DNA of 64,000 bases, taken from contig JAPMOS010000008.1 in NCBI GenBank assembly GCA_027972325.1, forward strand, positions 552,001-616,000, read 5' to 3'. The position numbers and the translations under genes were made by a program. The number at the start of each line of letters is the position of its first letter. The stretch's first letter is position 1. Shown one piece after another: positions 31,425 through 64,000 of the stretch. This DNA comes from Paratrimastix pyriformis. Taxonomy: Eukaryota > Preaxostyla > Paratrimastigidae. Under the pieces are notes generated by a model, which saw only the letters and a program-made list of their open reading frames with translations, ran no database searches and was not told the DNA's origin.

Positions 31425-34400
31425 ATGCAACCTCCGCGTGCTCCTGGGACAGTCTCGGATGAAGGGGAACACGAACAAAGTATCAGCAGCGTCGATCTTC
31501 AGAATAATCTTCATTGGAGCAGAATCGATGAAGGTATTTTTGGGCTTTATTATGCGATGAGCAAAGATCAATCGGAGAGTTTCAAGGTGATTAATCTGGG
31601 TAATATTGCGTTGCAATATTTACAAATGATCGGTCCGGATCTCTTCTTTCCATCAATTCCCATTTCTCCTCTCCTCTCCGGTGGCGCCCCCTCCTGCGGC
31701 AGCCATTTCCTTTAACAATGTGAAATGGCCGCTCGGAGTTCTCGACCCTTACGTGAGAGGGGCTTTTAGCGTGATTGATCTGAGCTTTTTTTCGGCCAGC
31801 CAAATTTCTCTCTGTCCGCTGCTGTTCCCCCACTTGTTGGTCTCATCCTTCCCTCGGCCCCGCAGATATCGTCTTCTCGCTCGTCTCTGTTTTTATTATT
31901 ACATCTCTTGTGATTGCCCTCGTGGTCATGCTTCTCTTCCGGGCGGTCTGTCGTCCGCTCCCTGGTTCGGCTGCCCATCCGGTTCTCTCCACGCCGCGCA
32001 GAACAAATCGCTGCCGCTTCTTCCGCTCAAAATCTTGCGACTCTTGACGATCTCTATGGTCTGTCGGGATGGAGGATGCGGGCAGGGGCATCGTCGACGA
32101 TCTCTCGTGGCCTCATCCCGCTCATCTCACGACCATATCGGATCCGGCTCCCCTCCTCGTCCCCCGCGCAGGTGACCTTCCTGTACATGCCCTGTGTGGG
32201 CGTCCTCCTGGGCATCCTCGACTGCACTTACGTTGTCTGTAGTGCTTTTTCCCCTGGGGCCGAGTGAGTGGACCCCGGCGGATGCCCGAGCGGGAGCCTG
32301 CCGGGGTGGCTCATCATCACATCACTCGTCCCCTCGGGTCGGTTGGCTGCTGCGCAGGGCCAGGTGACGCCCATGCACTCGGTGCTGACCGATGTGGAGT
32401 GTTGGGCCGTGCCGCACGTCATCCCCTCGGTCATCAGCATCGTCGTGCTGCTGGCCTTCGTGCCCTTCTCCCAATTCACCAGCCTCTTGTCCGCCTCGGC
32501 GCCCCCGCCCCTCCCGCCACCGCAATCCGTCCATCTGCCGTGCCTTTGCACATGACCATGTCTCGCTCACCCGCGGCACCCGCTCTGCTCGAACAACATG
32601 ACCCGCGCAAGGGCGGCATGCTGGCCCGCCCCAACGGGCGCTTCGACTTCGTGGTGGTCCGCCTCCTGGCCTCCCCGACCTGCCCCCTGCCCCCTGCCCC
32701 CTGCCCCTGCCCCTGCCCCTACCGCCACACTCGGGTTCCCTGGCCGGAGCGTCACACCCGGATCGGGGTCCGGGGTGGGGCCGCTGCGTCGGTCGGTGGG
32801 GCAGCTGGTGGTGAAGCTGGCCATCGTGGCCATCACCAAGCTCCTCACCAGCTACGAGTCGCTGCGGGCCTGGTGCAGCATCGTGGGCTACTTCTTCCTC
32901 TGCGGCTGGTCCGTTCGGCCCGCCCCACCCCCCCCCCCCCCCCCCCCCCCCTCCCATCATCCCACCTGACCTCGCCCCGTCCTGCAGGTCCATCTGGATG
33001 CAGCCGTACTACACTCCACGAGGCAACGCCCTGGTCTGCTGCCTGCTCGCGTTGCCCCGCCCCTCACCCCCTCCGGCGCGCACCGGCCCCTCGCCCTCTC
33101 CCCTCGCCGGCCTTCACCTCTCCCCCCGCTGCCCCTCACGCTCTCCTCCAGTACGCGTCCCTGTACGCCTCGAGCGGGCTCTCGTGCTTCTTCTCGACCC
33201 TGTCCCCCCTGGCCAGCCTGGACAACCCCGGCGGGGTGGCGGGCTTCTGGGTGGCCTACATCCTGGGCATGATCGCCCTCCCGGTGGGGGCCAGCTTCCT
33301 CTGCCGTCCGTCGCCCCACCGCCTGGCGCCCATTGCTCGCCCCGCCTGGCGCCCATTGCTCACGGGTGTGCGCCGGCCTCATCCCTCAGGATGGCGGACG
33401 CGGGCCCTGTGGGCGCTGCCCAAGAGCCGCCACCTGCCCGAGTTCTTCCTGCTGCGCCGCCAGCAGGCCGAGTCGACCATCGCCCGGGTCTCCTCCCAGG
33501 GCGGCCTGGCCCTCCTGGTCCCGGGCCTCTCGCCCAGCGCCAGCGGCAGCAGCGGCAGCCAGCCGACGGGCACCTCCATCCCCTCCGTCCTCGCGCCCGG
33601 TCCGTCGCGGCTCCTCCCTGGGGGCCGGCCACATCAGCCGCTCATCCCCTCCCCCTCCCCTCCCCTTTAGGCGCCTACCGGCCCCCACGCTACCGGAACG
33701 CGGTCGGCCTGGAACGAGGCGTCCGCTTCCTGCAGGAGTCCGTCCGGGTGCGCCCCATGTCCTGCCGCTGCTCTGGGCGGCCGACTGGCTGCCCTTTCGC
33801 GGCCAAGCAGCACTAGCTGAAGGGCTCCCGGGCGCTCGTTGCTCATGACTGCTTTCCTCGCCGCCGGGGGTGTGGCGGTGGTGGTGACTGTGCAGAAAGC
33901 AGTACCGCAAGCAGAAGGACTACGTGGCCTACGCGGACTTCCTCTACACGGAGGCCTTCCGCAAGCAGCGCAACAACCCCTCCCTCCACCTCAGCTACGC
34001 CATCTTCCTGCTGGTCCGCACCCCGGCGGCCCCCCGCCACCTGGACACTCTCCCATCCCCCTCGTTTCTGCTCCTCCGGGCGATGGGCAGGCCTACCGGA
34101 AGAACTTCGCTCGGTGCATGCAGCAGCTGCAGCAGGCCCGCCAGGTCCGCGCCCCGGCCTCTTGCCGCCCGACATAGACACCGCCCCCCTGTAGTGCTAC
34201 CCGTCGATGGACGAGCGGTTCGCCATCTACGTCAAGGCCAAGGACTGGGAGCAGGCCACCTCGGTCCGCCGCCATTTCCCGTCCCGCCCGGCCCTGACCC
34301 GCCGCCGTCCCGTTCCCCCAACCCACAGGCGGGTGGCGACCTGCGGTCGGCCCACGTCATGTCGGTGTTCACCTTCAAGCGGCACTTCTCCATGGCCCAG

Positions 34401-34457
34401 AAGTACCACGATGACGCCAAGGGTCCGCGGCGTGCCGCCATACCCCCGCCCTTCTCA

Positions 34458-34489
<32 letters not shown>

Positions 34490-37400
34490 ACCACCCCGGC
34501 CCCCCTCCCCTTGGCAGCGGCACTGCGGGATTTCTGCGAGGCGCTGCTGGCCGCCCAGCCCGACCAGGGGCGCATCATCGACCTGACCACCACCATCGTC
34601 GACAGCGAGGCCAAGGCCCGCGAGTACTACGAGCTGCTCCTCGAGTCCCACTCGAACAGCGTCCAGGTGCTCCGGTCCGCACCGACCACCCGGGGCTTTG
34701 CTTTGGCGCCCCCGCCTGCCGCCCCGCCATCGGCACACATCATCCCGACCCCCGGCCGCACTGCCCCCGCCCCGTCGAATCGCGCCCACGCCGCCCACCG
34801 TCGCCTCCACCCGCCTCCACCCGCCTCCCCCCCGCCCCCTTTCCCGACGCGCAGGGCGTACGGGTCGCTGCTGCGGGACATCTACCACGACGAGGAAGCC
34901 GCCAAGGTGCTCCTCAGCCGGGCCGACCTCATCGAGGACGACCAGTCGGTCTCCGAGTCCAACAGCGGCTCCGGCTCCCAGGTCCGCCGCCTGCAGCTGC
35001 AGCCCACGCTGACACCCCGTCGGCGCCCCCTCGTCAGCCCGGCCAGTCGGGCCCGCTGACCCCCAAGGCCGGCACCGCCGCCCGGGAGGAGAAGAAGCGC
35101 GTCGAAGCCAAGAAGAAGAAGAAGCTGGGCGAGATCAAGTCCGCCCATGCCCTCGTGCCCCGCCCCGCCCCTGCCGCTACCCTGCCCCGCTACCCTGTCC
35201 TGCCCACCGCTGCCCTGCCCCCCCTGTTTCCGACGACTGGGATGGGCGCTCATGGCGCCCCTCGCCTGGGGGGGTGCCCGGCAGGCTGGTGACCAAGAAG
35301 AAGAAGCTGCTGCCCAAGTTCATGCTGCGCCTGAGCCTGCTGCACCTGGTGGCCCTGGTCTCGGTCATCATCTCCACCTCGATCTCGCTGTACTCGGTGA
35401 GCGTCGTCAAGTCGACCGTCTTCGCCCTCAACGACTTCCTCGAGCTCGAGGCCCTCACCGCATCGGCCGCCATCAACGCCAAGGTCGCCGCCACCCCACC
35501 TACCCACCCCCCTCGGCTGTGGTCGCCCCCACCCCCCCTCGGCTGGTCGCCCCCACCCCCCCTCGGCTGGTTTCTATCCCCCCCCCACGGCTGACCCGGC
35601 TCTTCGGTCCCTTGGGCCGCGTGCACGGCAGGTGCTGATGGCCCACCAGGCGGCCATCGCGCGAGCAAACGCCACCCTGTCCGCCGACGGCACCGCCGGC
35701 AGCCCCCTCGACGGTCCGCCGCCACTGCCGCCCCCCCCCTGGCCACCACCACCATCCGTTGCCGTCTTTGCGCACGACGGTCGTTCGCTCCTCGGCGCTG
35801 ACGGGGATGGGGCGCGGATGTGTGCCTGGCTGCCCCCCAGGGACGGTGCTCCCGTCGGTTGCGGCCACCCGGGCCGAGCTGGCGGCGGGGGCCCTGCGGA
35901 TGCGGACCCTGCAGCAGTCGGTCTTCACCCAGATCCTGACCACCTTCCTCAGCGACGTCATCGAGGTCCGCCGCCCTCCCCCCGCCAGGTGCTGCAGCCT
36001 CCCTCGCCCCCTTTGCCGCCCGTCGCCATCGGCTCACCTTTGGCATGTTCCGTCGCCGACATCCTTCGGCATGATCCGTCGCCGCCATCGTCTCATCCTT
36101 TTTCCGTTGGCTGGGCATTGGCCCGGGCAGCACAAGGACCTGACGGCCATCACGGTCGTCACCTCGGGTGGGGTCAACATCCTCCAGCGCCCGGTCTGCC
36201 GCCACGCCCCCCGACCAGCTCTCCCCCCACAGGGCGCCGGCACCCCGTCTCTGCCCTCTCGTCTCGTCCCCATCCGTTCTCATCCCCTCCATTTCCGTTC
36301 TCATCCCCTCCATTTCCGTTCTCATCCCCTCCATTTCCGTTCTCATCGGTCGGGCGGCCCGGGGCCGGTCCAGTACACCTACTCGCTGTTCAACGTGCTC
36401 GACCGCTACTCCCTCGACCTGGCCGCGCAGCCCCTCGGGTCGGCCGCCCCCTCCCCTGCTGCCTTCCCTGCCCACACGGGCCTCCTCCGCTCCCCCGTGG
36501 GCCCTGCCATGACCGCCTTCTCTCGGCCCCCGCCTCTCCAGGACGGACGTGTTCTTCTCGGACGCCCAGTTCCTGGTGGCCAACCAGCCCACGGCCCTGG
36601 GGAGTACATGAAGGAGCTCGCCATGATCTACGGCGACTACGTGGACATCTGGTGGCCGGCATCGAGGCCCGTCCCATGCCTCCCCATACCCCCTCATGTC
36701 CCCCCCCCCCCCCCCCCCCCCATGCCCCCGTGTCCATGCCCCCTGGCGGCTGATTCCGCTTTGCGCTCGATTCCCGTCATGGGGGGGGCAGATTATGCTG
36801 GTGGGGATGGACTTCGCCGCGGCGGCGACTGTGCTCTTCGTGCTGCTCGGGTTCTACCTCAACACCAGCGCCAAGCTGGGCAAGGGCCGCGACCTGGCCC
36901 TGGCCCACATCCTGGCAATCCCAAAGTCCAGTCCGTCGGCCCCCGTTCTGCCCTCGCCACTTCCACCGACCACCGATGTGGATCCAGCCCAGTGCTTTGC
37001 ACGCTGCTGCCCCGGCCTCTCACTCACCCTCTCGCTCTGCGGGGTGATGCCGCGGCGGTTGGGGGCAGCCATCCGGGGCATGCTGCAGGCGCTGACGATC
37101 GAGCAGCTGGACGAGGCCGAGACGGCGCTGCCCAAGATCCGGGCCTTCCACGTGCGGGACCCCTCCTCGGCCCCCGAGCTGCTGACGCCCCCGCCCACGG
37201 ACCTGCTGCCGCCCCCCGACAGGCCGGCCCTCATGTCGGCAGCCTCGGCGGGCCCGGGGGACCTTTCGCTCGCCTCGGGGCCCACCTCGCCCATGGGCCA
37301 GCTGGAGCCGGCCGGGGGTGGGCCCAGCCCGGCGACCCTCCCAGGCGACCGGTCCGACCTCTCGGAGGGCGCCCCGCACCCGTCCACCCGGATGGTGTTG

Positions 37401-39841
37401 ATGGCCCAGCCCCCGAGCCTGGTCGAGCCCCACTCGCTGGCCACCTCGCACCGCTCCGCGGCCTCGGCCGCCTCGCGGACCCACACGACGTCGACCGGCA
37501 TGCCACCAGCCGGCCCCGCCAGCACGGGCGGCGGCGCCACAATCAGCAGCGACGGGCCGCTGACCGAGTGGATGACCATCACCCACACCGACTCCGCCTA
37601 CCCGGCCCTGCCGCCCGGGCAGGCTCCCGCAACGCCCCCGGCCCGTGACTCGGCCCTGCCCGAGGGGGACGCGATCCCGCTGACCATGCCCCGGGTGGGC
37701 AGCACATCGGACGTGCTCTCGGCGGCCAGCCCCACTCCGCCCCCGGCCTCCGGCCCGAACCAGCAGCGGTCAGCCTCCCGGGCGGACCTCTGGAAGGCCG
37801 CCCACGCCAAGAAGCTCCAGCAGAAGGCCGTCAAGAAGAGCGAGTGCTGCAGCGGCCTCAGAGGTCCGCTCCCGCCGCCGCACCGCCGCCCCCCCCCTCC
37901 TCCTCCTCCTCCGCCTGCCCCTTCGGATGATCACCCTGTCGCTCCCCCCCCGCTGTAGCGGCCCTGCACGTCCCGCTGGCCATCCGGCTTCGGGTGGGGC
38001 TGGGCGTCTTCCTGATGGTCCTCTCGCTGAGCCTGTCGGCCGTCTTCACGGTGAGCGCCCAGGACAATGTCGCCGAGACCGGCCACCCGTTGGCCCTCTG
38101 CGGCCAGCAGGAGACCCAGGTGGCCGTGGTGCGGCTGCTGGCCACCCAGCTGCTCTTCAACAGCTCGCTGCCCCTGCTGGACAACCCCGCCAACCCGGCG
38201 GCCACGAACCCCGTCTGGCGCGACCTGAGCCACCTCTCCAACGACCGGGCCGCCCTGCAGCGGCTGCTGGCGGGCCAGGCAGACTACCTCGAACGCGTCC
38301 TCTTCCGGGTGCTCTACGGCACGGGCGCCAGCAACACCACCCTCGACTCGGCCATCGACGGGCGCCTCTTCGAGCGCACATCGGGGCAGGACGCGGCCCG
38401 GGAGACCCTCCTCAACAACCCCCAGGCCTGCCTGATGTGCAACGCGAGCGATTGTGTGGCGGGCCGGATCCGGGGCCTCGACGGGACCCTGGTGGGGCTG
38501 CTGCCGCTGCTGGCCCGCTACCTGGACGCGGCCCGCCAGCTGAGCGCCCTGCCCCCGGGCGAGCTGACCCCGACCAACCCCTACTTCGAGTTCCTCTTCT
38601 CGGCGGGCCGCTACGACCTGCACGACGGCATGCAGCAGTGGACCGACAGCTTCCTCGAGTCTGCCCGCCCCTGCCCCCGTGCCTTGGAGCAGCAGGGCCA
38701 CCCATCCTTCCCCGGGTGGCACCGCACGGGCAAAGACCCCCTCTTCTTGAGCCTCTCCGGGTTTTCACCGCCCTTCTTCTGCGCGCCCTCCGGGGGGTGG
38801 CAGCCAAGTCGGGGCGGGGGCCACGACGATGCTCATCGGGTGGCTCATCGGCGACATCGTCGTCATCGCCTTTGCCTTCGGTCCGTCGGGCGCCCTCTGC
38901 CGCCGCCGCCTCGCTCACCCCGTTTCGTTGGGCTCCCCGCAGTGGTCGTGCTGCTGCCCACCAAGCCGCTCCTCTGGGCCGAGGCCCACAAGACCTTCAA
39001 GATGCTCGAGCTCTTCCCCGAGGACAACGAGCCCGGTCCGCGGCCCACCCATCCCTCGGACCCCCCCCCCCCCCCCCCCCCCCCCCACCCCCCTGCTCAC
39101 CTGGCCTCACCATCCCCCCTTCCGCTGGCCACCATCAGTTCGGCCGCTGGAGTGGGACGGGGCCTGGCTCATGGGGGTGCCGTCCCTCGACGCCCAGCAC
39201 CGGGACATTGTCGATGTGGCCAGGCGGCTGGTCGAGGCCCTGGCCACAGACGACCCCGAGGTCCGCTCCCGCACCCCCACCCGCACTCCCACGCACGAAG
39301 GCGAACCTCAACCTCTCGCCCATCCGGCTCATCCGCACGCTGGCTCTCCCACCCACCCACCCACCCCCACCTCAGGCTGCCAGCAGTCTCAACGGGCAGC
39401 TGTGGGAGGCCCTCACGAGCGCCTTCGCGGCCGAGGAGCGCTTCATGAAGGAGCGCCGCTTCCCCGGGCGCAGATCCCACCAACGCGCCCACGCGGCCAC
39501 CCTGGCGGGGGTCTGTCCGCCACCCCTTCGGCCCTCCATCGGTTCGGGGGGCTGCCCGGCTGCCCTGCGCGCCTGCTGAGTGCTCATGCGCCTCCACCTC
39601 CCACCTCTCCTTCCCTTCTGCCCACCCCACCCCCCACCCCACCCCCCACCCCCCCCCCCCCCCCCCCCCCCGCACTCCTGTCGGTTGTTCCCAGTTCAAG
39701 CAGGCCCTGGGCCTCCTCACGGAGGGCTCGACGGACACGCTGCCCATCCAGCGGTACACCCAGTCGTGGCTCACGGGCCACGTCGCCAAGGAGGACCGCG
39801 CCCTGGGGGTCTTCCTCGCCGCAGGCGACACCCCCGTATAG
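31425..39841 (+). CDS. TmcB-like polytopic membrane protein with C-terminal hemerythrin domain (copy 1)
   Basis: Very large membrane protein of the tiny-macrocysts B/C type. The ATG at 31425 (MQPPRAPG) aligns with copy 2. The order is: an N-terminal hydrophobic region with several membrane helices (31500-33300; [47 protein letters not shown]). Then comes the cytosolic TmcB-type helical-repeat region (about 33680-35010; [70 protein letters not shown]). A Lys-rich patch (35080-35140) and a helix follow (FMLRLSLLHLVALVSVIIST). A conserved ectodomain-like region contains LALCGQQ and [16 protein letters not shown]; further helices near 36800, 38000 and 38830 precede VVVLLPTKPLLWAEAHKT. The hemerythrin domain (39137-39841) has DAQHRDIV, AAEERFM, HQRAH and GHVAKED. 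Roughly 25 or more introns, many GTCCGC with C-runs. Confidence 0.8.
36281..36348 (+). repeat. 21-base tandem repeat in intron
   Basis: More than three copies of TTCTCATCCCCTCCATTTCCG within an intron of Tmc-hemerythrin copy 1. Confidence 0.9.
39137..39841 (+). other. Hemerythrin domain of copy 1, one iron-ligand His absent
   Basis: Exons encode LEWDGAWLMGVPSLDAQHRD, TSAFAAEERFMKERRFP, SHQRAHAATLA and WLTGHVAKEDRALGVFL. Compared with bacteriohemerythrin, first-helix His, Glu of the HFxxEE motif, the HxxxH pair and the final HxxxxD are present. The His of HFxxEE is Ala (codon 39421-39423). Confidence 0.75.
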
Positions 39842-39950
39842 GAGGCCCCCGCTCGGGAGGAGCGAGATCGCGGGGAGCATCATCGCCGGTGCCCCTCGTC
39901 GATTTTCTATTGGATCGTCTCGTCCGCTCCCCCCGATTCGTTTGCGGCCC

Positions 39951-39981
<31 letters not shown>

Positions 39982-42771: not shown

Positions 42772-45700
42772 ATGCAACCCCGAGGGCCTGGGCTCACTTC
42801 CCCCACTGGACCACCAGCAGATGGCGACGAACCAAGTTTGTCGAGTAGTATTTTTGAGACAACGATCCATTGGAGCCGTTTCGACGAAAGCGGTCAGTCC
42901 TCCTAACGGCATGTCTGGATAACTGTGAAACGTCGGCGGGTAGTGTTTGGTCTTTACTACGCCATGTCAAAAGACCGGCCAGAGGGTTTCAAAAAGTTCC
43001 ATTTTGCCATGGTTGTCCTTCAATTCGTCCAAATGCTTGCGATTTCGTTCAATGGAATCGAGTGGCCACTAGGCGTGACAGAGCCATACGTTCGGGGCGT
43101 ATTTGGCGTTGCCGACTTGAATATTGTGGCCACGAATCAAATTGCTCTCTGTCTGTTGTCCGCTCACTCGGAATTTCTTAACTCACGATGCCACGACAGA
43201 TGCCGTTTTCGGGCTCGTTTGCTTTTTCGTCATCGGTGCTGTTGTTGACGCGTTTATTGTCGCCTTCTTCTTCCACAAGGTCGGGATGCCCTTCGCACCC
43301 CGCCGACATCTCCTCGCCCGCCTAGAACCATTCGATGCCCTTGCTACCCATCAAGATCCTCCGTGTCCTCGTGACGTCCATGGTCTGCTTCGCCCCATGG
43401 TCATCATCTTCACCGGACTGCGTTCATTTGGGTCGGCCGGTGGCTGGTGCCCGGGGGTCAGGTGACCTTCCTGTACATGCCATGCGCGGGCATCCTGCTG
43501 GACATCCTCGACTGCACCTATCCGGTCTGCCGCCGCGCCCGCCACCCCCGGCCGGGCTGAGGGTCGCCCACCATCGGTGCGACTCAGCCGCTTCGGACCT
43601 CTCTTTGGCCCGTCTCGTCGCCCCCCGTGGGTGGGAGGACAGGCCACGGGGGTGCCCACGCACGCCCTGCTGGAGAACGTCCAGTGCTGGGGCATGCCCC
43701 ACCTGGTGCCCTCGGTGCTGGCCATCCCCGTCCTGCTGCTCTTCGCGCCCTTCTGCCTCTTCACGGCCCTCTTGTCCGCCCCAGCGCATCCTATCCACCC
43801 CGCCCTGCCTCGCGCCCCTCTTGGCTCGCCTCGTCTCTCTTGGCATCCGCTCCCCCCCCCCCCCCCTCCCCCCCTCCCCTCCCTCCCCCCTCCCTCCCTC
43901 TCTCGGGTCTCGGACGGTGTCTCACTCCCGGGTTGTGGGGACACGGGCCGGCGATCAGCCTGTTCAACAACGATCCCAAGAAGGGCGGCATCATGGCCCG
44001 CCCCAACGGCCGGTTCGACCTGCTGGTGGTCGGTGCCCGCGCCCCCCCCCCCCCCCCCCCCCCCCCCATCAGACGACCACCTGACATCGCCGCCTCCGTT
44101 TTTTCTGACTCCCGACCGACCGTGGCGGCCGTAGCTGCTTGTGAAGCTGATCGTGCTGGCCACCTCCCGCCTGCTGACCGGCGCCCAGGCGTCCCGAGCG
44201 GCGGTCTCCATCGTGGGCTTCCTGCTCCTGGCCCTGTGGGTCTTTTGGCGCCAACCCTACATCAGGCCCGCCGCCAACGCCCTGGTCGGTCCCATGCCAT
44301 CCCCTCCGCTCCATCCCCCCCTCCGCTCCATCCCCCCTCCGCTCCATCCCCCCCTCCGCTCCATCCCCCTCCGCTCCATCCCCCTCCCCCCCCATTGATC
44401 CGCGGCTGGCTCGGCCAACCCCTCCTCCACCATCCATCCTCACCCCTCGTTGCCTCCCCCGCCCCGCGGCACCAGATGACGGCCCTGTACGCGTGTTGCG
44501 GCCTCTCGTGCATCTTCTCGACGGTTGCACCCCTGGTGCGCCCCGCCGATGGGGCCGCGACGGCCGGCTTCTGGGTGGCCTACTTGCTGATCCTGCCCGC
44601 CCTCAGCACCCTGGCCGCCCTCGCCGCCCGCTGGCGCGCCCGTCGGCTGTGGGCCCTGGGCCCGGGCGGGCGGCTGCCGGCCCACTTCGCCCGCTGGAGC
44701 CAGCAGCAGCCTCAGGCCGTGGGGAACCCCCCCGTGGTCTGGCTGGGGCTGGCAGCCCAGCCCGGGGGGCTCCTGGTGGGGGGCGCCGAGGGGGCCGACG
44801 CCCAGCGGGCCGGATCCGTCGTGCCCCGGCGAGCCGCAGGGGCGCCACAGCCCCCACCACAGACCACATCCGCGGCCGCAGCATCCGCCGCCAGTGCCCC
44901 CGCCGCCGCCGCCGCCGCCGCCGGATCTGCAATCAGCACTGCCGGGGCCACAGGAGGAGGGTGGGGAGCATCGGCCGCGGGCGGGCCGGGGGGCGAGGGC
45001 GGTTCCGCATCTCTCGGGCGGGGCCCTTCCTCCCGGGTGGCCCCGAGTCCACCCGGCAGCAGCGCCCCCACGCCAAGCAGCGGGCCAGCCACCGTACCGT
45101 TCGGGCCGAGCAGCTCGTTCCTGCTGCCCCTCGAGGGTCGGATACCCCCCCCCCCCCCCCTTCCCCCCCACACACAGACCCCCCCACCTTCTTGCTCGAG
45201 CCTTGTGCTGGGTTCCTGACCCCATGCTGCCCGCTCACACATGGCGGGTGTCTGCACTTGGGGCGCAGAGGGCGCTCGGCCGCCCAAGTTCCGCAGCGCC
45301 TCGGCGGTGGAGCGGGCCATCCGCTTCCTGCAGGAGTCCGTCCCCCTCCCGCCACTTGCGCCCGCTGCTGGCTCTCCCCACCGCCCCCTCACCACTCTTT
45401 CCCCTTCCCCTTCCGCCGGGCATCTCACCGGCTGCCGCAGGAAGCAGTACCGCAAGCAGGCCTCGTACGTGCTGTACGCGGACTACCTCTACAACGAGGC
45501 CTTCCGCAAGCTCCGCAGCAGCCCCGCCCTGCACCTCAGCTACGCCATCTTCCTGCTGGTCGGCGCTCCTCCTCGCCCCCCTCGCCCCCTCACCACCACC
45601 CCCAGCCATCATCGCCCCCCGCCATCACCGCACCACCCCGGGGGGGGATGCGCCTCCCCCTCAATCCGCTCGTTCCCCGCGCCCCCCGGCAGGCCTACCG

Positions 45701-47056
45701 GAAGAACTCGGCCCGGTGCATGCAGCAGCTGCAGCAGGCCCGCCAGGTCCGCCTCGGGCGATGACTGCTGGGACCGGGGGGGTGGGGGTGGGGGTGGGGG
45801 TGGGGGTGCGAGCGCTGAAGGCCACCAGACGCCCGCACAGCCAGCCCGACCGCTCATCCTTCGACTTCATCCTGTGGGGCGGGGGTGGCCTCCAGTGCTA
45901 CCCGTCGATGGACGAGCGGTTCGTGATCTACGTCAAGTCCAAGGACTGGGAGCAGCAGACCTCGGCGGGCGGCGACCTGCGGTCGGCCCACGTCATGTCG
46001 GTGTTCACCTTCAAGCGGCACTTCTCCATGGCCCAGAAGTACCACGAGGCCGCCAAGGGTCCGCAGCCACCGCCCCCCCCCCCCCCCCCCCCCCCCTCCC
46101 CCACCCCCCCGCGGCCCCTGGCGGGCTGACCATCGCCCCCCTGCCCCGTTCCCGCCCCTGGTGCGCAGCCGGGCTGCGGGACCTGTGCGAAGTGATGCTG
46201 GCCCCCGTGGTGGACCAGCCGCGGATCCCCCAGCTGACGGCCACCATCGTTGACAGCGAGGCCAAGGCCCGCGAGTACTACGAGCTGCTCCTCGAGTCCC
46301 ACTCGAACAGCGTCCAGGTGCTCCGGTCCGCACCCGCCCGCACGGCCCCCGCCTACCACGCGGCCCCCTGCATGCCCACCCTCGCTCGCCCAAGTGCCAC
46401 GCGGCCCCCGCACTGGCCGCCCGCCTCTCTTCTTCGGCCCGACCGCCCGCCTCACTGTGGGTCCTCTCCTCCCGTCTGGCGGCAGGGCGTACGGGTCGCT
46501 GCTGCGGGACATCTACCACGACGAGGACTCGGCCCGGATCCTCTTCGCCCGGGCCGACCTGCTCGAGGACGACGCCTCCGTCCGCCCTGCCCTCATGCCC
46601 CCACGCCCCCCCACGTCCCCCACGTCCCCCACGTCCCCCATGCCCCCCGTGCCTCATGCGTGCCTCATGCGTGCCTCATGCGTGCCCCGTGCCCCGTGCC
46701 CCGTGCCCCGTGCCCCGTGCCCCGTGCCCCGTGCCCCGTGCCCCGTGCCCCGTGCCCCGTGCCCCGTGCCCCGTGCCCCGTGCCCCGTGCCCCGTGCCCC
46801 GTGCCCCGTGCCCCGTGCCCCGTGCCCCGTGCCCCGTGCCCCACGCTCCGCCAGCTTCCGTTTTCCCTGCCGCCCTCGCCAATCCGACTGGCCCTGTCTG
46901 CCGTCTGCCCCTCGCCCAATGGCGGCCTGCTGACATCATCCGTGTCTGTTTGGTGGGGCGGGGCGGGACCGCATGCCGTGCCGCCCTGCAGAACTCCGAC
47001 GTCTCGAGCTCGCGAGGGTCCTCGTCCCAGGTCCTGGGGGCCCTCCTGAGGCCGCT

Positions 47057-47093
<37 letters not shown>

Positions 47094-47124
47094 ATCATCA
47101 TCAGGTGGTTCGGCTTCCTCACAA

Positions 47125-47159
<35 letters not shown>

Positions 47160-47263
47160 TGCAGGTGGTGGGGAGCGCCCTGCAGCAGCTGCACCGGCGG
47201 CGGAAGGAGGCCAAGAACCGCGAGCGGCGCAAGAAGAGGCGCACAGACGGCGAGATCAAGTCC

Positions 47264-47307
<44 letters not shown>

Positions 47308-50300
47308 ACACACGAGGCTCTCCGCCCCCCTCGCGCTTCATTCCACTCCGACCGGCTCCCTCGCTCCCGCCGGTGCTGACCCGGGCGGGCCATCTTTGCG
47401 GTGGTGCTGCCGCGGGGGGGCGGGACGTGTGCAGGCTGGCGACCCGCAAGGAGAACCTGCTGCCCCACTTCGTCCTCGTCCTCACCGGGCTGGTCCGCAC
47501 CCCGCACCCCGCACCCCACACGGACGCAGCCCTGCCACCCACCCACCAGGCGACCCACCGACCCCCCCGCCCACACAGCCGCCCACCGTCGATGATGGCG
47601 TCCTGTTTGGGTCCTGCCCCCCTCTGCGATGATGTGGGGCCGCGGGCAGCACGTGATCTGCCTGGGGGCGGTGATCCTGTCGTACTGCATCGCCACCGCC
47701 TCGACCAACGCCATGTCGGTGACCGTCGCCGGCCTCAACGACATGCTCCAGATGGAGTCCCTCTGCGCCCGCATGGCCGTCGACGCCAAGGTCCGCGGCC
47801 GCCCTCCCGAGGAGATCCACGGGGCCCGCCGCAGCTGCGGCCTCTGGGCGGGCGGTCGGGCAGCCCGGTTTGCCGGTTTACCGGTTTACCGGTTTTGACG
47901 ACTGGACCCCCCTGCTGCTGGTCCGGGGTGGGGGGGCTGCAGATCCTGGCGGCCCACCACGCGGCTCTGGTCGAGGCCAACGCCACCCTGGCCGCCGACG
48001 GGGGCGGGAGCCCGCTCGCGGGGACGGTGCTGCCCTCGGTGGCCGCGACCCGGGCGGCCCTCACCCAGACGGCAGCCGCCATGCGGGCACTGCAGACATC
48101 CGTCTACACGGCCGCCCTGCAGTCGGAGATCCACAGCCACTTTGAGGTCGCCCCACCCGCCCACCCGCCCACCCGCCGCCTCCTTCCGTCCTGCACGTGC
48201 GCCCGGTGGGGTGCGGGGCCGACATGGAGGCGGGCAATCAACCGACGCGTTGGCCTCACCATCGGTCCCCGACGACTGAATGGTGGGTGGCGGCGGCGGC
48301 GGCGGTGGTGGTGGTGATGATGGGGCGATGCAGAGGAACAGCCTCAACGTGACCGAGCTGGTGGTGGGCGACGGGGCCAACCTGGTGCAGACCTCGCGCC
48401 ACTCGACGTTGCGCGGGCTGCTGGACCGGTTCGCCGAGGTGGCCCTCGACCTGGCCACCAGGCCCCTCGGGTCCGGCCCCCCGCCCTCAGCACCGAGTGA
48501 CCCGCGTCATCCCGCCCCGACCATCCGCCATCGCTGACCCGTGGTTGTGCTGGTGGGCGGGCACCCCGCTGGATGGGGGGGTCGGTGGTGGGGCGCAGGA
48601 GCGACGTCTTCCACGAGGACGCCCAGTTCCTGGGGGCCAACCACGCCCCGGTGCTGCTGGAGGCCCTCAAGGGGGTCGGCTTCGCGTACGGGGACTACCT
48701 GTACGGGCTGGTCATGTCGGTGGAGGTGTGCATCCTGGTGCTGACCGACATGTCGGCCGCGGTGGTGCTCTTCTGCATCCTGACCTTCTTCCTGCGCACC
48801 TCGGTCAAGCTGGGCCGCGACCGCGAGCTGGCCCTCAGGCAGGTGCTGACCCTCTCCAAGACCGGTCCGCCCCGCCACCGCCCCGCCTCGCCCCGCCCCG
48901 CCCGGCCGATGGGGGATCAGACGGGGTCTTGCTCGGCAGCCAAGCACCCCCGTTCTTCACTGTGTGCCTCGGTGGTGGCCTGGCGGGGTCTCATGTGGGG
49001 GGGGGGGGGGGGGGCAGTCATCCGGGGCATGCTCGACGCCCTGACGGCCGAGCAGCTCGACGAGGCGCCCCGGGTGCGGGCCGCCATTGCTGAGAGCCCC
49101 ATACCCCAGATGCCGCCCGCCCGCGACCGGCCCGGAGCCGAGGGGGCGGCCTGCTCACCCAGCCCCAGCGTCTCGCCGGCGCCCCCCGAGGGGATGATGG
49201 TCCCCGTCAGCCGGGCCAACAGCTCCCTCGACGGGTCGGTCGTGGTCTGCCTGACGGCCTCCGCCCCCCTGGTCAGGCCCCGCTCCAGCCGTCCGGGCGT
49301 CTCGGGGGCCACCGTGCTGTCCTCGACCATCCCGTGCCCCTCGCCGCCCACACCCGGCACGGGGGGACCGCAGCCCCTGCCTCTGGTGCCCATGGCGGCG
49401 GCGGCGGCGGCTGAAGGCGATGCGTCCCGGGCTGGCGGCGCCCCCTCGGTGCAGCAGCAGTCCTCGTCCTCGGAGAGCCCCGCCCCGCGGGTCCTGGAGC
49501 GGCCCCAGTCCGAGTGGATGCCCCCCGTGACGGCCGCCGAGGGGCCGGGGACCCTGGACCGCACCCCGACGGCCGTCTCGGCGCCCCTGCCCCTGTCGGC
49601 CCAGGAGTCGCTGCGCTCGCTGGAGCGGCTGGCCGAGTCGATCAGCGACGGGGACGGCGGGGGCGACACCCTGGCCGAGTGGCTGGCCGTCACCCACCAG
49701 GACGCCACCGCCCCCGCGCCCCTGCCCGGGTCGGCCATGCTGGCGGCGCCCCTTGGGGTCCCCGACGACGAGCCGCCCGCAGCCACCCAAAGCGGCAACC
49801 CCGCGGCCCTCGTCCCGGCGCCCTCGCCCCCCCCGGCCAACCGGACGACCTCGAACGGGTCCCTGCTGGCGGCGGGCCTCCCGGGGCTGCTCAAGTGCGA
49901 GACGGTGGCCATCCTGAGCCCGTCGCCCTCGGCGGCCACCGTCCGCCTCGAGTACCCCGGCGAGGGTCCGATGGCCCTCTGCTCCAAGGCGGCCGGGGCC
50001 GACGGGGCGGCGGGCGACATGACCGCGGCCACCTTCGAGGAGCGGCCCTCGCCCGGCTGCGACACCACCTCGGCCAGCTACCTGGCCCCCCGCCCCCCGG
50101 CCGGTGAAGGGGCCGGTGAAGGGGCCGGGGACGGGGACGGGGCGGGCGCGGAGGAGGTGCGTGTGACCCTGAAACGTACCCAGTCCATCCCGCTGGGGGT
50201 CTGGTGCCGCATCGCGTGGGGCGTTTCGATCATGCTGGTGGCCCTGGCCTGCTCGGCCATCTTCAGCCGGAACGCCCTCCACGGGATGGCCGCCATCGGG

Positions 50301-51956
50301 CCCCCGCTGGCCCTCTGCGGCCAGCAGCAGGCTCAGGCCGTGGTCCTCCGGCTGCTGGCCACCCAGCTGCTCTTCAACAGCTCGCTGCCCCTGCTGGACA
50401 ACCCCGCCAACCCGGCGGCCACGAGTCCCGTCTGGCGCGACCTGAGCCACCTCTCCAACGACCGGGTCGCCCTGCAGCGGCTGCTGGCGGGCCAGGCGGA
50501 CTACCTCGAGCGGCTGGGCTTCGTGCTGCTCTACGGCACGGACTCGGGGGTCGCCACTGCCGACCGGGCCGTCGACGGGCGCGCCTTCGGGCGCAGCTCG
50601 GGCCGGTACGCGGCCCGGGAGCGGCTGCTGGACGGGACCCAGGGCTGCCTGATGCGCAACGCGAGCGACTGTGTGGCGGGCCGGATCCGGGGCCTCGACG
50701 AGACCCTGGTGGGCCTGTCGCCCCTGCTGGCCCGCTACCTGGGGGCCGCCCGCAAGCTGAGCGCCCTGCCGCCCGAGCGCCTCCGGCCCGGCAACCCGTA
50801 CTTCGAGTTCCTCTTCACGGCCGGCATGTGGGACCTGGGCGACGGCATGCAGAGCTGGACCGAGAGCTTCCTCGAGTCTGTGCGGGTCGCCCTCCATCGC
50901 CCTCGGCTCGCTTTCCATACATGCGCTGGGCTCATGTCCTGTGGTGGTGGGTGCGCGTTGGTGGGGCCCGTGGGGGTGGCTGCGGTGGCCGCAGCGAGTC
51001 CAACGAGACCCTGCAGACGTCCCACTCGATGCTGCTCTCGTGGTTCATCATCGACATCATCTCGATCGGCTTCGCGTTCGGTCCGCCCGCCCCAGCGGCG
51101 TCCATCCACAACCATCAGCCCCCCTCTCGCACTCTCGTGCATCCTCTGCTCAACTCACCCGGCCGGCCTTTCCATCCCCATCCATCCCTGGGCGCGCAGC
51201 GGTTTTGCTGGCGCCCACCAAGCCGCTCCTGTGGGACGTGGCCCACAAAACCAAGAAGATGCTCGAGCTCTTCCCCGAGGACGCCTCCGGTCCGCCCCCC
51301 CCCCCCCCCCCCCCCCCCCCACCACCACCCGAGCCTCATTTGGGTCATGGGCCTGCGTGGGGGACGCAGGGGCGGGAGCCTCGAGTGGGACGAGGGCTGC
51401 CTGCTGGGGGTCCGCGCCATGGACGCCGACCACAAGGCTCTCGTCGCCCAGGCCATCCGCATGCTGACCGCCGCCGCCGCCGGCGAGAAACACGACGTCC
51501 GCCATGCCCCCGCCCGTCTCGCCCGTACCGCACACCCCCGTTCTTCTTCGCGTCCCTCATGAGGCAGGCGGTTGCTGGGGCGGGAGCAGGTTGTGGAAGG
51601 CCTCACCGGCAGTCTGCTGGGCAGCATGGCGGCCCACTTCGAGGCCGAGGAGCGGCTCATGGCCGAGCAGCGCTTTCCCCTCCGACTGGCCCACACCCGC
51701 GAGCACTCGGCCACCCTCGCCAAGGTCCGCCACAGCCACAGCTCGCGCTGCCCCCCCCCCCCCCCCCCCCCCCCTCCCTCCTGTCGGCCTCCGATTCAGG
51801 GGGCTTTGCGGGTGGTGGCGCGGGCAGCTGAGCCGGGCGCTGGGCCAGTGGGACATGCGGGCCGCCGAGTGGCACCTGAAGGGCTGGCTGACCGGCCACG
51901 TGGCCCAGACCGACCGGGCCCTGGCCCTCTTCCTCAACCAGCGGGGCGTTCAGTAG
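42772..51956 (+). CDS. TmcB-like polytopic membrane protein with C-terminal hemerythrin domain (copy 2)
   Basis: Paralogue of copy 1 with the same order of parts. The ATG at 42772 (MQPRGPG) is supported by the matching start of copy 1 and by IHWSRFDES spliced to [11 protein letters not shown] across a GTCAGT intron. Recognisable parts: [14 protein letters not shown]-terminal membrane helices to about 44600; helical-repeat region 45290-46590 ([53 protein letters not shown]); basic patch near 47170-47256 ([16 protein letters not shown]); helix-rich segment 47640-47800; helix at 48715-48800; a long Ser/Pro/Ala cytosolic stretch 49030-50160; ectodomain-like exon 50200-50880 nearly identical to copy 1 in places; [20 protein letters not shown]; hemerythrin 51370-51956 with [23 protein letters not shown] and GHVAQTD, all usual iron ligands kept. 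Stop TAG 51954-51956. Confidence 0.8.
44305..44395 (+). repeat. Tandem CCTCCGCTCCATCCCC-type repeat
   Basis: Five or so copies of a 13-17 base pyrimidine-rich unit inside an intron of copy 2. Confidence 0.85.
46683..46842 (+). repeat. 7-base minisatellite CCCCGTG
   Basis: About 22 perfect tandem copies in an intron of Tmc-hemerythrin copy 2. Confidence 0.95.
47062..47093 (+). repeat. 32-base C homopolymer in intron
   Basis: A sense-strand C-run in Tmc-hemerythrin copy 2. Other plus-strand C-runs of comparable kind lie at 44041-44067, 46073-46097, 47266-47293 (followed by a CA repeat), 51296-51320 and 51751-51772. Confidence 0.95.
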
Positions 51957-52503
51957 CCCATCCCCCTCTTTGGCCGCCCTCTCTCGACTGGCTTGTTTGC
52001 CGCCCGATCGTATTATTTGCCCGCTCCATCAGCCACATGGGTGGAGGGGGCCTTCTCTCAGTCCGTGTCTGTTGTGGTCCTGCTTTCGCCGTCCTTTTCC
52101 GCTCTCATCGAGTGCGTGCCTGTGGTGGTATTTGTGAGCGAACCCTTTCCCCCCTTGGGCAGAATGCCCGCCGCTTTCCCACCTCGTTCGCCTTCTCCTC
52201 TCCTCCTATCCCCCAAGCCCTTTTCATGGTTCATCTCCTACCCCAATCCCTTTTCATCTTTCATGGTGCAACTCGTTCTCTCGGCGAGTTCCAAAAAAGA
52301 AAGAAAAGAATACGACCAATCGAGGCGCTGGCGCTGGCGCTGGCGATGGTGGACATGGACCAGCCAGCACTGGGTGCAGGCCATCGCGCTCGTGTTCACT
52401 GTGGGGCATGTCGTCCCCCCCCCCCCCGCCCAAAAAAAAAAGGTCGCCCGGAATTCCGGCTCCGGCAGGGTGCTGGTGACCGGGCCCTTTCCACTGTTCC
52501 GCG
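51957..52503. other. Intergenic region
   Basis: About 550 bases downstream of copy 2. Contains a short CTGGCG repeat near 52327-52350 and an A-run at 52432-52441. No gene is supported. Confidence 0.4.
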
Positions 52504-54940: not shown

Positions 54941-55368
54941 GGGCGGCCGAGTTCACGGTCTTCCTGCGGAGCCACCAGGAGCAGCTTGAGGCCATCCAGC
55001 TGCCGGCCCCCCTGTGGCACCCGCTCTACCGCAAGCTGCGGGCCGAGCTCTTCGACGCGGCCTCCGTCGTCCAGTTCGCCCCCGTGGCCCGCGTCGAGGG
55101 TCCGCCCCACGGCCCAGCCGCGTCATGCCCTCCTGCCACCCTGCCACCGCCCCTGGGCCAACCCCGGGCCTGGCCCCTCCTTTTCCCGCACCTGAACATT
55201 CCACCATTGGCTCGGGGCCCGGCGGGGCGTCCAGGCGGCCCGGTGCACCCGCTGCAAGGCCTGCAGACGTGCAACAAGGAGGGCGTCACCCTGCGGGCTG
55301 GGGAGCAGGTCTTCCTGGTGGACCACAGCTGGACCACCACAGCCGGCTACGCCCTCGCCCAGGTCGGA

Positions 55369-55434
<66 letters not shown>

Positions 55435-56134
55435 GTTTTTGTTTTATTTTCCCGTTACTTCGTTCCTTCTTTACACGACACACATTCGTCAGCCATTCCT
55501 GCTCCTCGGAGGGGGACTTCCACAGAGGTCCCCAGCCAGTTGAGCGGTCCGCGGCTGAGTCCGTTCTGTCGGACATAGAGGGTCTCCGGACTCTCTCCCC
55601 GAATTTCGGGGATCGCACACCAAGGCAGCTCCGGCTGCGTCCTTTGATCAGAGAGTGCACATGGCTCTCTCCCGATGCTCATCGGGTCTTGGCGGCCTAC
55701 TTCGGCTGCTATCCGCTTTGGCGGACGGGAGCCTCCGGGTTCCCACCCGAAGCTTTTCGGGTTCGGTGTTGCGCGCCGATGTTCACTTATGCACATGACG
55801 GGCCGATGTGGTGAAGGGGTGGTTGGGTGCGCGATTCGCTCCGAAGGGACTGGACATATGGACCGGTCGTTCGTTGGGTGTGCGTGCTCTCCCTGCTATA
55901 TCTGGTGGTGGTGGGTGGTTGTGCAAATCCCCTTGCGCCGCTACTCGCTGCTACCACCTGGTGGGGGTCCCTCCGCATTACGCCACGACGGCAGGTCCGT
56001 CCTCTCCCTAACGAGCCTATCAAACGCCCTCCACAGGGGATTCCTTCGCCCACGGGTGCAGTGACATTCGTGCTGTCTCTTCTACCTCTCTGGTTTTTGT
56101 TTTATTTTCCCGTTACTTCGTTCCTTCTTTACAC

Positions 56135-56167
<33 letters not shown>

Positions 56168-56687
56168 CCCTCACCCGCATCGCATCGGATCCGCCCGCAC
56201 CGCTTGCCGCCCGCCGCCCGCACAACCGACTCATGTGTGCCCCTCGTTTATGTGTTCCCCTCGTTTATGTGTGCCCCTCGTTTATGTGTGCCCTCGTTTA
56301 TGTGTGCCCCTCGTTTGGCTTTTGATGGCTGGCCGTTGCGGGTGGCGGGTGGGCGTGCAGCTGCGGAAGGTGCCCGGGCTGCTGGAGCGGGTGCGGCTGC
56401 TGACGGGCCTCGACCAGGAGGAGGCCGCTGATGATGATGCCCAGGCCGAGGATGAGGGCCTGGAGGCCCAGGCCGCCGAGGAGCAGCCGGAGGGCGAGGA
56501 GGGCGCGGAAGGCGAGGAGGGCGAGGGCGCGGAGGGTGAGAGCGCCCCCCCGACACTGGAAGGTCCGTCCGCAGGGTGTGCGGTGTCGGTGCCATCCGCC
56601 GCCTCGGAGTCTTGTCGGGCTGCCGCACGCCTCCACCTGGGCGGCGATCCGATCCGGCCCCTCTTCACCTCCGGGCTGTGTGCCTGG

Positions 56688-56719
<32 letters not shown>

Positions 56720-61668: not shown

Positions 61669-61706
61669 GGTGGTTTGGGAGGCGGCAGTCGCTGGGGTCG
61701 ATCGGT

Positions 61707-62540
61707 TTAGAAAACATGCGGATTCGCAGCAGGGACCACAGAAGGCGTCTCCTCCTCGACGAAGTGCATCCCGTGGTGGGCCACCACCCGCCAGCCGGGG
61801 CGGCCGGACCCTCGGGGGGCATCCGTCCGGGTGGCCTCGAAGAAGGCGCAGTAGTCCAGCCCCGTCATCCTCCGGCACAGCCCCGCATCGGCCTGGTCAA
61901 GCAGCGTCTCCACACCGTATCCGTGGGTCACCAGAATGGCCACTGCAGGCCCAGTTTGGGGAGCGATGATGATATCAGACGGGGAGAGAGGGAGAGGGGA
62001 GACATCGACCATCACAGTTCGCAGGCTCATCGCGCTCGCAGACGCCGTGCCACACCGAAGCGTACCGTTCCGCGGCTTTGTCCCACTGAGGTCGACCCGG
62101 GTCGGTGGTCAGTCAAGTCCCGGGGGAGGACAGACCTTCTCTGGATAGGCAGGTTTCGTGTGGAGCCGGGATAAGTCAAAATCGCAGCCGGGAAACTTAC
62201 TTTGGAAGTAACTCTCCGTGAAAATGTCCCTAAACGATGGGACAAGCGAGGGCGCAAGAACCTCTGAGAGCCCCGGCAAAACAACAATTCTGGGATTACG
62301 TTCCGGGAAAAGAGTGCGTGATACCAATTTGCACGTCTCCAGGCACCTCTGAAAGGGACTTGAATAAAACACCACGCGGTTTGGGTCAAAGGGACCACGA
62401 AAAAGTTTGGCGGCTTCCGATGGATAGAGATCATTCGGAACCAGCGGCGGGTCCCACCAGAGCTCGCCGGTTGCTCGCTTCCACTCCCCTCCGTCACTTT
62501 CATCCATCCGAAAACCATGACGGATGACAATCACTCTCAT
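61707..62540 (-). CDS. Histidine phosphatase (phosphoglycerate mutase-like superfamily)
   Basis: Phosphatase that uses a phosphohistidine. MRVIVIRHG at the N-terminus holds the RHG catalytic motif; VFYSSPFQRCLETCKLVSRT has the typical second Arg after SSPxxR; ILVTHGYGVETLL carries the second catalytic His. The ATG at 62540 sits directly before the RHG strand; an upstream frame extension is Arg-rich and unlikely. Two introns (donors GTCTGT and GTCGAT) join PAYPEK to WDKAAERYASVWHG and then NCD to VAILVTHG. Stop TAA at 61707. The protein is about 230 residues and resembles fungal/protist cytosolic phosphatases and the UBASH3 phosphatase domain; substrate unknown. It is convergent with TTLL12, 38 bases stop to stop. 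Confidence 0.85.
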
Positions 62541-62672
62541 TGGTTCGTGATGGTGAAGAACACTGCGCCGGGTCGGAGCCGCGCCCCGTCTCAAACGATG
62601 CCGACGGAAGAAGAGAAAATACGCACAAAACCCAAAAATCTCAAATAAATGCGCTCGCAAACACCCGCAGGG
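62541..62672. other. Short intergenic region
   Basis: About 130 bases between the histidine phosphatase ATG and the stop of Tmc-hemerythrin copy 3, both minus strand. It must serve as promoter for one and 3' UTR for the other. Confidence 0.4.
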
Positions 62673-63036
62673 CTACGGCGCAATCGCGGCCGCTGCGTCT
62701 CTGCGGGCCAGAAATTGACCAAATTCTCGATCGGCTCTGATCACATGTCCGGTGAGCCACGACTGGACGAGGGACTGGACCATGACCCCGTCATCGGTCG
62801 CCTCGTGCGCCATGGCCTCCATGGCCTGCTTCAGCTACGAGCCGAAAAGCAAAATCCGCCAGGGTCAGGTCAGCAGCAGAAGGAGGGCGCGGACCCCGGC
62901 CAGGGTGGCGAAATGCTCGTGCCGATGGGCGCGGCGGCGGGGGAAGCTATGCTCGCGCATGAGGCGCTCCTCGGCCGCGAAGGTGGCCGTGAAGGACTCC
63001 CACAGCTGCCCCAGCAGGGCCGGGATGCCCTGCGCG

Positions 63037-63083
<47 letters not shown>

Positions 63084-64000
63084 CCGAGATTGCATGGGCC
63101 TGGCATGGGCCTGGCATGGGCAGGGCAGGGCAGGGCAGGGCAGGGCAGGGCAGGGCAGGGCAGGGCAGGGCAGGGCGTCTGACCTCGCGCTCCTCGTCGG
63201 TCGCGAGGGCCTCCATCAGGCGGCCCGCCAGCTCCACCAGGGCCCGATGGTTGGCGTCCATCAGCGGTTGCCCCGTCTGGTAGGCCGGCCGCCACTCCAC
63301 GATTTGCGCTGCGGGGTGCAGACCAACCAATACAGGGGGTACGTCAAGATCGAAACAGAGGGGTCGAAGAGGCGGGGCGGGGGGTGTCTGCCAAGACCGA
63401 GAGCGCGTCCAGAGGAGCAGAGACGGAGAGGTCGAAGAGACGGAGAGGTGTGGGGCGGGGGTGGCGGTGGGGCACCGGGGCGGCGAGCGGACCGAGCGGC
63501 CCCAGCTGGTCGCTCTCGGGGAAGAGCTCGAGCATCTTGAAGGTCTTGTGGGCCTCGGCCCAGAGGAGCGGCTTGGTGGGCAGCAGCACGACCACGAAGG
63601 AGAACAGCAGCGCCACTATGTCCACCGAGAGCCACCTGCAGATGCTCCAGCCGCCACAGAAAGGGGGTGCGGGGTGTGGGGACAGGGCGTGAACGGGCTT
63701 GCGTGACGAGGAGCCGGGGGGCCGAGGCTGCCGGGGAGGAGGGAGGTGGGCCGCGGACCCGATCAGCATGATCATGGCGTTGCCCCGGTCGACCCGCGAT
63801 TGGCTGCGCAAACAAGCAAAGCCACGAGTGCAGCGAGTGCGGTCAGGACAGGACAGCCAGAGAGGGATCAATGTCGGTGCGCACTCGCGCGCTCAGGTCA
63901 TCAGACATCCCATCTGCACACCCTCCACGGGGGGGGGGGGGGGGGGGTGCCCACATCCCCAAAGGGCCCAAGGCGCCGGCAGACTCGAGGAAGCTGTCGG
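62673..64000 (-). CDS. TmcB-like membrane protein with hemerythrin domain (copy 3), 3' part only
   Basis: Third paralogue, inverted relative to the others and cut by the right edge. Reading 5' to 3' on the minus strand: DSFLES at the edge with a GTCTGC donor, as in copies 1 and 2; a helix fragment RGNAMIMLIGSA; WLSVDIVALLFSFVVVLLPT then [20 protein letters not shown]; then hemerythrin exons VEWRPAYQTGQPLMDANHRA, ATFAAEERLMREHSFP, HRHEHFATLAG and SWLTGHVIRADREFGQFLA, stop TAG at 62673-62675. The His of the HFxxEE motif is Thr (codon 62982-62984 region), as it is missing in copy 1. A 40-base C-run (sense) lies in one intron at 63039-63078. Confidence 0.85.
63039..63078 (-). repeat. 40-base homopolymer, longest in the window
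   Basis: G on the plus strand, C on the sense strand of copy 3, directly followed on the plus side by an 11-base and a (GCAGG)n tandem repeat (63117-63176). Confidence 0.95.
63117..63176 (+). repeat. Pentamer repeat (GCAGG)n
   Basis: About 12 copies in the same intron of copy 3. Confidence 0.95.

Follow-up and report, generated by a model that had tools for sequence, protein, structure and literature searches.

In the account of hemerythrin given in PMC9388753, one iron of the di-iron centre (Fe1) is held by three His and the other (Fe2) by two, Glu and Asp bridge the pair, and O2 binds at Fe2. The same source describes redox-dependent activity as demonstrated for the bacterial fusions Bhr-DGC and Bhr-HD-GYP, whose ligands it reports as fully conserved, and presents the P1B-5 ATPases, with an HxE variant, as an exception. 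For the receptor DcrH, a redox-linked change in the N-terminal loop has been proposed to drive signalling. The perception of oxygen in eukaryotes without oxidative mitochondria is, to our knowledge, largely unknown.

Paratrimastix pyriformis, a free-living metamonad, is described in its genome paper (PMC10703272) as an inhabitant of a low-oxygen habitat, in line with the low-oxygen protist that the original prediction had supposed. The paper gives a genome size of 56.6 Mb and gene models generated genome-wide by Augustus with RNA-seq hints, and the word "hemerythrin" is absent from its main text, the part of the paper considered here. The window, meaning the whole stretch of 64,000 nucleotides that was analysed (C474:552001-616000 in the 56.06 Mb assembly), had been predicted to hold three copies, within 33 kb, of a TmcB-like membrane protein ending in a hemerythrin domain. 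The three copies, their shared domain order and their C-terminal hemerythrin exons are recovered by the gene models, and all three pass the NCBIfam profile TIGR02481; they are, however, only part of a family of 31 hemerythrin loci.

Architecture of the copies in the window

The forward strand carries copies 1 and 2, while copy 3 is on the reverse strand and crosses the window edge, extending to about C474:624.5 kb. A fourth copy is situated beyond it, outside the window, at about 72.7-81.9 kb in window numbering, and a TTL/LRR gene and a phosphatase-like gene (the latter recognized by eye) stand between copies 2 and 3. The features, in window positions, are as follows.

31425..39841, forward strand: copy 1, whole gene, ATG 31425, stop 39839-39841 (exon model)
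33896..34981, forward strand: copy 1, TmcB-type TPR exons (PF25474, DNA match, exon model)
35285..36930, forward strand: copy 1, membrane helix, ectodomain 1 and membrane helix exons (exon model)
37959..39035, forward strand: copy 1, exons for ectodomain 2 between a membrane helix and the last membrane helix (exon model, family profile)
39139-39260, 39376-39510, 39695-39841, forward strand: copy 1, hemerythrin exons (TIGR02481, genome matches)
42830..51956, forward strand: copy 2, stop 51954-51956 (deposited P0003; 5' end approximate, deposited ATG 42964)
45441..46579, forward strand: copy 2, TmcB-type TPR exons (PF25474 in P0003, exon model)
51370-51496, 51590-51724, 51828-51956, forward strand: copy 2, hemerythrin exons (exon model, TIGR02481)
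62673..64000, reverse strand: copy 3, 3' part, stop near 62673 (deposited P0002, PAPYR_2375)
63308-63184, 63029-62895, 62834-62673, reverse strand: copy 3, hemerythrin exons (genome matches, TIGR02481)

By sequence, copies 2, 3 and 4 are the deposited proteins P0003, P0002 and P0007, and copy 1 is not among the deposited proteins returned by the protein searches. P0001 (PAPYR_2325) is encoded at C474:437 kb, P0009 and P0008 on C13, and P0010 at C79:147 kb. The exons of copy 1 from 32172 to 39841 are open with a single terminal stop and encode 1,428 aa; its N-terminal exons (31425-32171) were read by eye, with approximate splice sites. Its helices were placed by the hydropathy of the paralogues P0001 and P0002, and a Lys-rich patch precedes the exons for helix, ectodomain 1 and helix. 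The order shown by the sequence is N-terminal membrane helices, TPR repeats, a helix-ectodomain-helix unit twice, and hemerythrin.

The assignment to the TmcB type is borne out by PF25474 matches and by alignment with algal TmcB proteins. When 31.2-45 kb was scanned with Pfam frame by frame, in two of the three forward frames, TPR_TmcB was found at 34.5 kb (E 3.7e-7). With PF25474 (cut-off 27) a single exon of copy 1 scores 30.5 bits, its TPR DNA match at C474:586520-586678 reaches 25.3 bits, under the cut-off, and P0001, P0002, P0003 and P0007 score 71.1, 67.6, 59.2 and 55.5 bits; P0008 and P0009 as deposited are without TPR_TmcB, both models starting downstream of the TPR. A multi-helix membrane region precedes the TPR, as judged from hydropathy and from an alignment in which four proteins of Paratrimastix and two of algae cover the region, and its fold model is weak (pLDDT 62).

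The hemerythrin profile TIGR02481 (cut-off 51.75 bits) is passed by the modelled copies 1 (64.0 bits), 2 (65.6 bits) and 4, and by the deposited P0001, P0002 (copy 3; 60.6 bits), P0009 and P0010, whereas P0003 as deposited, with its first exon missing, fails at 31.4 bits; of six other hemerythrin models, half pass and the other half do not reach the cut-off (51.7, 47.7 and 45.4 bits). The Pfam hemerythrin cut-off of 25.3 is exceeded by P0007-P0009 (29.8, 31.4, 34.1) and missed by P0001-P0003 (24.8, 13.8, 13.1), and an initial genome search with Pfam hemerythrin matched one place only, because the domain is split across three exons. The automatic names of P0009 and P0010 already cite a hemerythrin-like domain. 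The domain model has the four-helix bundle of hemerythrin; its best Foldseek match is DcrH, at an E of only 0.016, and in profile and fold comparisons DcrH-Hr and bacteriohemerythrin come nearest. By these comparisons the predicted hemerythrin is of bacterial type, and DcrH is its closest solved structure.

Pfam scans of P0001-P0003 and P0007-P0009, with matches considered up to E 0.5, revealed neither HAMP and MCP signalling domains nor PAS; the only kinase, cyclase or chemotaxis domain was an artefactual kinase in P0008. The NCBI name of copy 2 (P0003) is 'putative PAS domain sensory protein FXL5', an identity rejected here on the ground that PAS was seen neither in the proteins nor at these loci: PF13426 and PF00989 have 3 and 6 matches in the genome, none of them at TmcB loci, in a search liable to miss a PAS domain divided among exons. 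FXL5 of Chlamydomonas we take to be a FixL-like heme PAS protein; a literature search for it gave no paper.

Continuity of the reading frame and extent of the family

The exon model is home-made and was trained on these same loci, with the chain of copies 1 and 2 divided at stop codons. In the models of copies 1-3, 32 of 38 introns start GTCCGC, GTCCGT, GTCTGC or GTCTGT, and at least one of the 6 others is due to a misplaced boundary in the copy 2 model. The last membrane helix of copies 1, 3 and 4 leads through three hemerythrin exons to the stop in one frame with GT-AG introns; the intron between helix and hemerythrin uses GTCCG as donor and CAG as acceptor, and the stop codon appears only after hemerythrin. 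The claim that hemerythrin belongs to the same gene thus stands for these copies, with deposited models in agreement, but meets a frame conflict in copy 2, where the donor at 51290 (GTCCGC consensus) and the acceptor CAG at 51367-51369 disagree before the first hemerythrin exon, and where an in-frame join is possible only with other donors, some of them non-GT. No single model of copy 2 is complete: the home-made one is without exon 51200-51289, and the deposited P0003 omits exon 51370-51496 and hence the first His. An odd splice site, a sequence error or a lost exon may be responsible.

Separate small hemerythrin genes, the outcome that the original prediction had named against itself, were not seen; they are rejected on the in-frame joins of copies 1, 3 and 4, although the splice sites of copy 2, taken alone, would allow them. 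That the fusion as a whole is an artefact of gene models, with hemerythrin exons forming small genes of their own, is highly improbable. Wrong deposited models certainly exist, since P0008 continues past two stops into a kinase, P0007 carries about 800 surplus N-terminal residues, and the first hemerythrin exon of copy 2 has no in-frame join via consensus sites; yet the GT-AG joins of copies 1, 3 and 4 argue the other way, as does an identical order at 24 of 25 TPR loci and at two further loci without a TPR match. The hemerythrin-kinase fusion in P0008 is itself rejected as an artefact, with two stops after hemerythrin and one stop before the kinase start. Stand-alone hemerythrins were likewise rejected, as the two TPR-less loci checked (C79:477 kb and C57:206 kb) are tails of helix-ectodomain-helix genes. 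In five deposited sequences, and in the copy 1 model, TPR and hemerythrin belong to a single predicted protein; elsewhere only their neighbouring order and common strand are known, and at C4, C52 and C38, where 15-17 kb separate them, a single gene is an assumption.

The profile searches proposed with the original prediction, for hemerythrin and the TmcB repeat, reveal TPR_TmcB exons at 25 places in the P. pyriformis genome and at none in 14 control genomes. At 24 of the 25 a hemerythrin exon follows downstream at a distance of 4.1 to 17.2 kb on the same strand, the sole exception being C288; 22 of these pairings come from TIGR02481 matches (E up to 1, with 1 of the 14 control genomes also matched) and two from matches of separate searches (E 0.59 and 0.034) whose sequence was then read. 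Same-strand downstream TIGR02481 matches within 20 kb occur at 22/25 TPR loci, where random placement expects about 0.007 per locus, and opposite-strand matches within 20 kb at 3/25, each due to a neighbouring copy. The pairing of TPR and hemerythrin is not due to chance. Hemerythrin loci number 31 genome-wide, or 32 counting an unread match at C79:407 kb, and all 20 small stretches fetched around matches hold fragments fitting the family profile. Judged by these profile matches, the window copies belong to a lineage-expanded family of about thirty predicted members.

The metal site and the point of fusion

The ligands were tallied in 28 domains against DcrH, smaller denominators reflecting gaps in incomplete models. 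The first His is retained in 21/26 domains and lost in 5/26, whereas the second, that of HxxxE, is retained in only 10/28 and replaced in 18/28 by Ser, Val, Ala, Leu, Thr, Phe or Cys. Glu is present in 28/28, the two His of HxxxH in 28/28 and 27/27, the last His in 25/26 and Asp in 25/25. All seven ligands (H-HxxxE-HxxxH-HxxxxD) are seen in 7/28 domains, including copy 2, subject to its splice conflict, and two more domains are complete as far as their models extend. Domains with complete sites include those of PAPYR_4115 and of the C79:477 kb gene. The pattern HxxxE/HxxxH/HxxxxD had been ascribed to the copies in general; within the window the full set occurs only in the DNA of copy 2, while the His of HxxxE has become Ala in copy 1 and Thr in copy 3. 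Two domains read by eye after the tally have Ser (C57:206 kb) and Gly (C38, bridging Glu unclear) at this position, bringing its retention to 10/30. Domains were typed from models with low-complexity stretches (L040, L047) and leading or trailing residues (L038, L039, L043, L045) excluded, and L032 was read through to its stop in the displayed frame. L031, L038, L045 and L047, which have missing exons, are in the tally and out of the tree; C135:22.8 kb (L054), modelled in part, is uncounted, and C79:407 kb is unread. Presumably the Fe2 pair consists of the motif's first two His, which would put the ligand losses on the side of Fe2. A tree of 26 rows including DcrH requires three changes in the state of the second His, one of which is forced by well-supported branches. 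The branches of the hemerythrin tree are long.

Among copies 1-4, dS is 0.07 to 0.24 for the TPR, 0.10 to 0.29 for ectodomain 2 and 0.49 to 0.88 for hemerythrin, a contrast that fits gene conversion homogenising TPR and ectodomain and sparing the tail. The NG86 dN/dS values, unreliable at this GC, are 0.44-0.73, 0.61-1.12 and 0.55-1.42, respectively, and those of hemerythrin give no sign of strong constraint. The algal proteins P0004 and P0005 align across the N-terminal membrane region and the TPR, and P0004 alone of the two also aligns over ectodomain 2 and the last membrane helix, ending at column 282 of the Paratrimastix profile. Hemerythrin starts at about residue 290, just past that end. 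A TmcB-type receptor would have gained a bacterial-type hemerythrin at its C-terminus, a step that forms part of the explanation favoured below.

Possible modes of action and known systems

The charge before the first ectodomain-2 helix is +4, +5 and +1 in three proteins, a pattern suggesting that the ectodomains lie outside and hemerythrin in the cytosol. It is reasonably likely that the family consists of redox or oxygen receptors joining an outside ectodomain to a non-heme cytosolic sensor, the bacterial-type hemerythrin having been acquired at the C-terminus. As has been suggested for DcrH, the hemerythrin would pass the oxygen or redox state to the same receptor that responds to an outside signal, whereby heme would not be needed. 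In members with complete sites, which are probably di-iron sensors, the di-iron centre would be oxidised on meeting O2, and the O2 or redox state would alter the bundle right under the last membrane helix, thereby modulating the receptor of the outside ligand. Half-site members retain the other iron's three His together with the bridging Glu and Asp; they might bind a changed di-iron centre or just one metal, or they might bind none and serve as bundles for signal relay alone. In Preaxostyla, cytochrome b5 domains are present and heme uptake is likely, according to the genome paper (PMC10703272), and heme-free sensing is therefore not forced. Against a uniform oxygen receptor stand the 2/3 window copies and 18/28 domains without the Fe2-side His (an assignment by motif order), as well as the doubtful splice into the first hemerythrin exon of copy 2, the third window copy.

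Other readings of the tail were weighed as well. FBXL5 is an iron sensor, a precedent for a tail that senses iron level or NO, or scavenges O2 or NO locally, instead of sensing O2 or redox state. A mycobacterial hemerythrin-like domain with altered ligands is described as an NO peroxidase (PMC8913304), which points the same way. This reading is nonetheless unlikely, given the nearness of DcrH-Hr and bacteriohemerythrin by profile and fold, and a large receptor would be an odd carrier for a scavenger. It is also quite unlikely that the tail of most members is a degenerate, metal-free four-helix bundle serving dimerisation or signal relay: the loss of the HxxxE His in 18/28 domains, with its three changes on the tree, and fast amino-acid change would agree with such a bundle, but the other ligands are nearly invariant despite the long branches, and a plain scaffold would need none of them. 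Within the favoured reading as redox or oxygen receptors, a more specific picture is offered tentatively, as one that may well prove wrong: about 30 two-input receptors with an added cytosolic non-heme iron sensor, in which the O2-iron position was dismantled in two thirds, perhaps thrice, and the other iron position kept, the half-site class being tuned to a signal other than O2. If so, they would represent a new half-site class of hemerythrin sensor in an anaerobic eukaryote, where related algal proteins carry PAS. The work provides a concrete candidate family of receptors, from a free-living metamonad, in which the chemistry of one domain is testable in isolation; its complete and half sites form a natural series for asking what hemerythrin does without one Fe2-side ligand, and the poorly understood TmcB family receives a testable function.

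TmcB proteins are known, and so are hemerythrin-tailed receptors; a literature search found no paper on their combination, nor on hemerythrin in P. pyriformis, which agrees with the original remark that no description of such a class was known. In two protein searches all matches were from P. pyriformis (6/6 and 5/5), and in a third 3/6, together with two algal and one bacterial-type; these searches reach near relatives only (in two, only candidates sharing most words were scored), and the fusion may therefore exist elsewhere. In the bacterial Bhr-DGC, Bhr-HD-GYP and P1B-5 ATPases, hemerythrin is also fused to another domain, yet the partner domains differ, as does the HxE variant of P1B-5 from that of Paratrimastix. 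The green-algal TmcB/TmcC-type proteins P0004 (Tetradesmus) and P0005 (Edaphochlamys), which have the N-terminal membrane region and TPR in common with the Paratrimastix members, carry PAS domains and no hemerythrin, whereas the latter carry hemerythrin and no PAS, and the C-terminal position of hemerythrin differs, by eye, from that of PAS in P0004. DcrH of Desulfovibrio vulgaris likewise belongs to an anaerobe and is a membrane receptor with a domain between helices and a C-terminal hemerythrin, cytosolic in DcrH and probably so here. It differs in its HAMP and MCP signalling domains, in place of which the Paratrimastix members have TmcB membrane and TPR parts, with no MCP in the scans, and in its metal site, of which most Paratrimastix members have one His fewer.

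Splice sites and the copy 2 junction

The first hemerythrin exon of copy 2, one of the TmcB-type membrane protein genes with a C-terminal hemerythrin domain, is left out of the deposited protein P0003. At this junction (51200-51496, + strand), the consensus splice sites give a frame conflict between the exon of the last membrane helix and the first hemerythrin exon. In copies 1-3 most modelled introns (32 of 38, within 31400-52000 and 62600-64000 of the window) begin with the donor GTC[CT]G[CT], which is an unusual 5' splice site and a strict one.

Deposited models of related genes

The deposited protein P0008, named 'calmodulin-dependent kinase' (stretch L053, contig C13, 75501-77700), merges a hemerythrin receptor with an adjoining kinase gene across two stop codons. 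P0007, the deposited protein of copy 4, likewise carries in its model a long N-terminus of foreign look.

Neighbouring genes and divergence among the copies

Other genes in the window are as follows.

40590-42350, + strand: gene between copies 1 and 2; signal-like start and single C-terminal membrane helix, by eye
52400-61700, + strand: large gene region that matches tubulin-tyrosine-ligase and, with a score under the cut-off, leucine-rich repeats
61700-62560, - strand: short histidine phosphatase-like gene; RHG motif, by eye

When copies 1-4 are compared in pairs, their hemerythrin exons show a dS several-fold above that of the exons of the TPR region and of ectodomain 2 (the second predicted outside domain, just before the last membrane helix), and this difference suggests that parts of these genes have undergone gene conversion.
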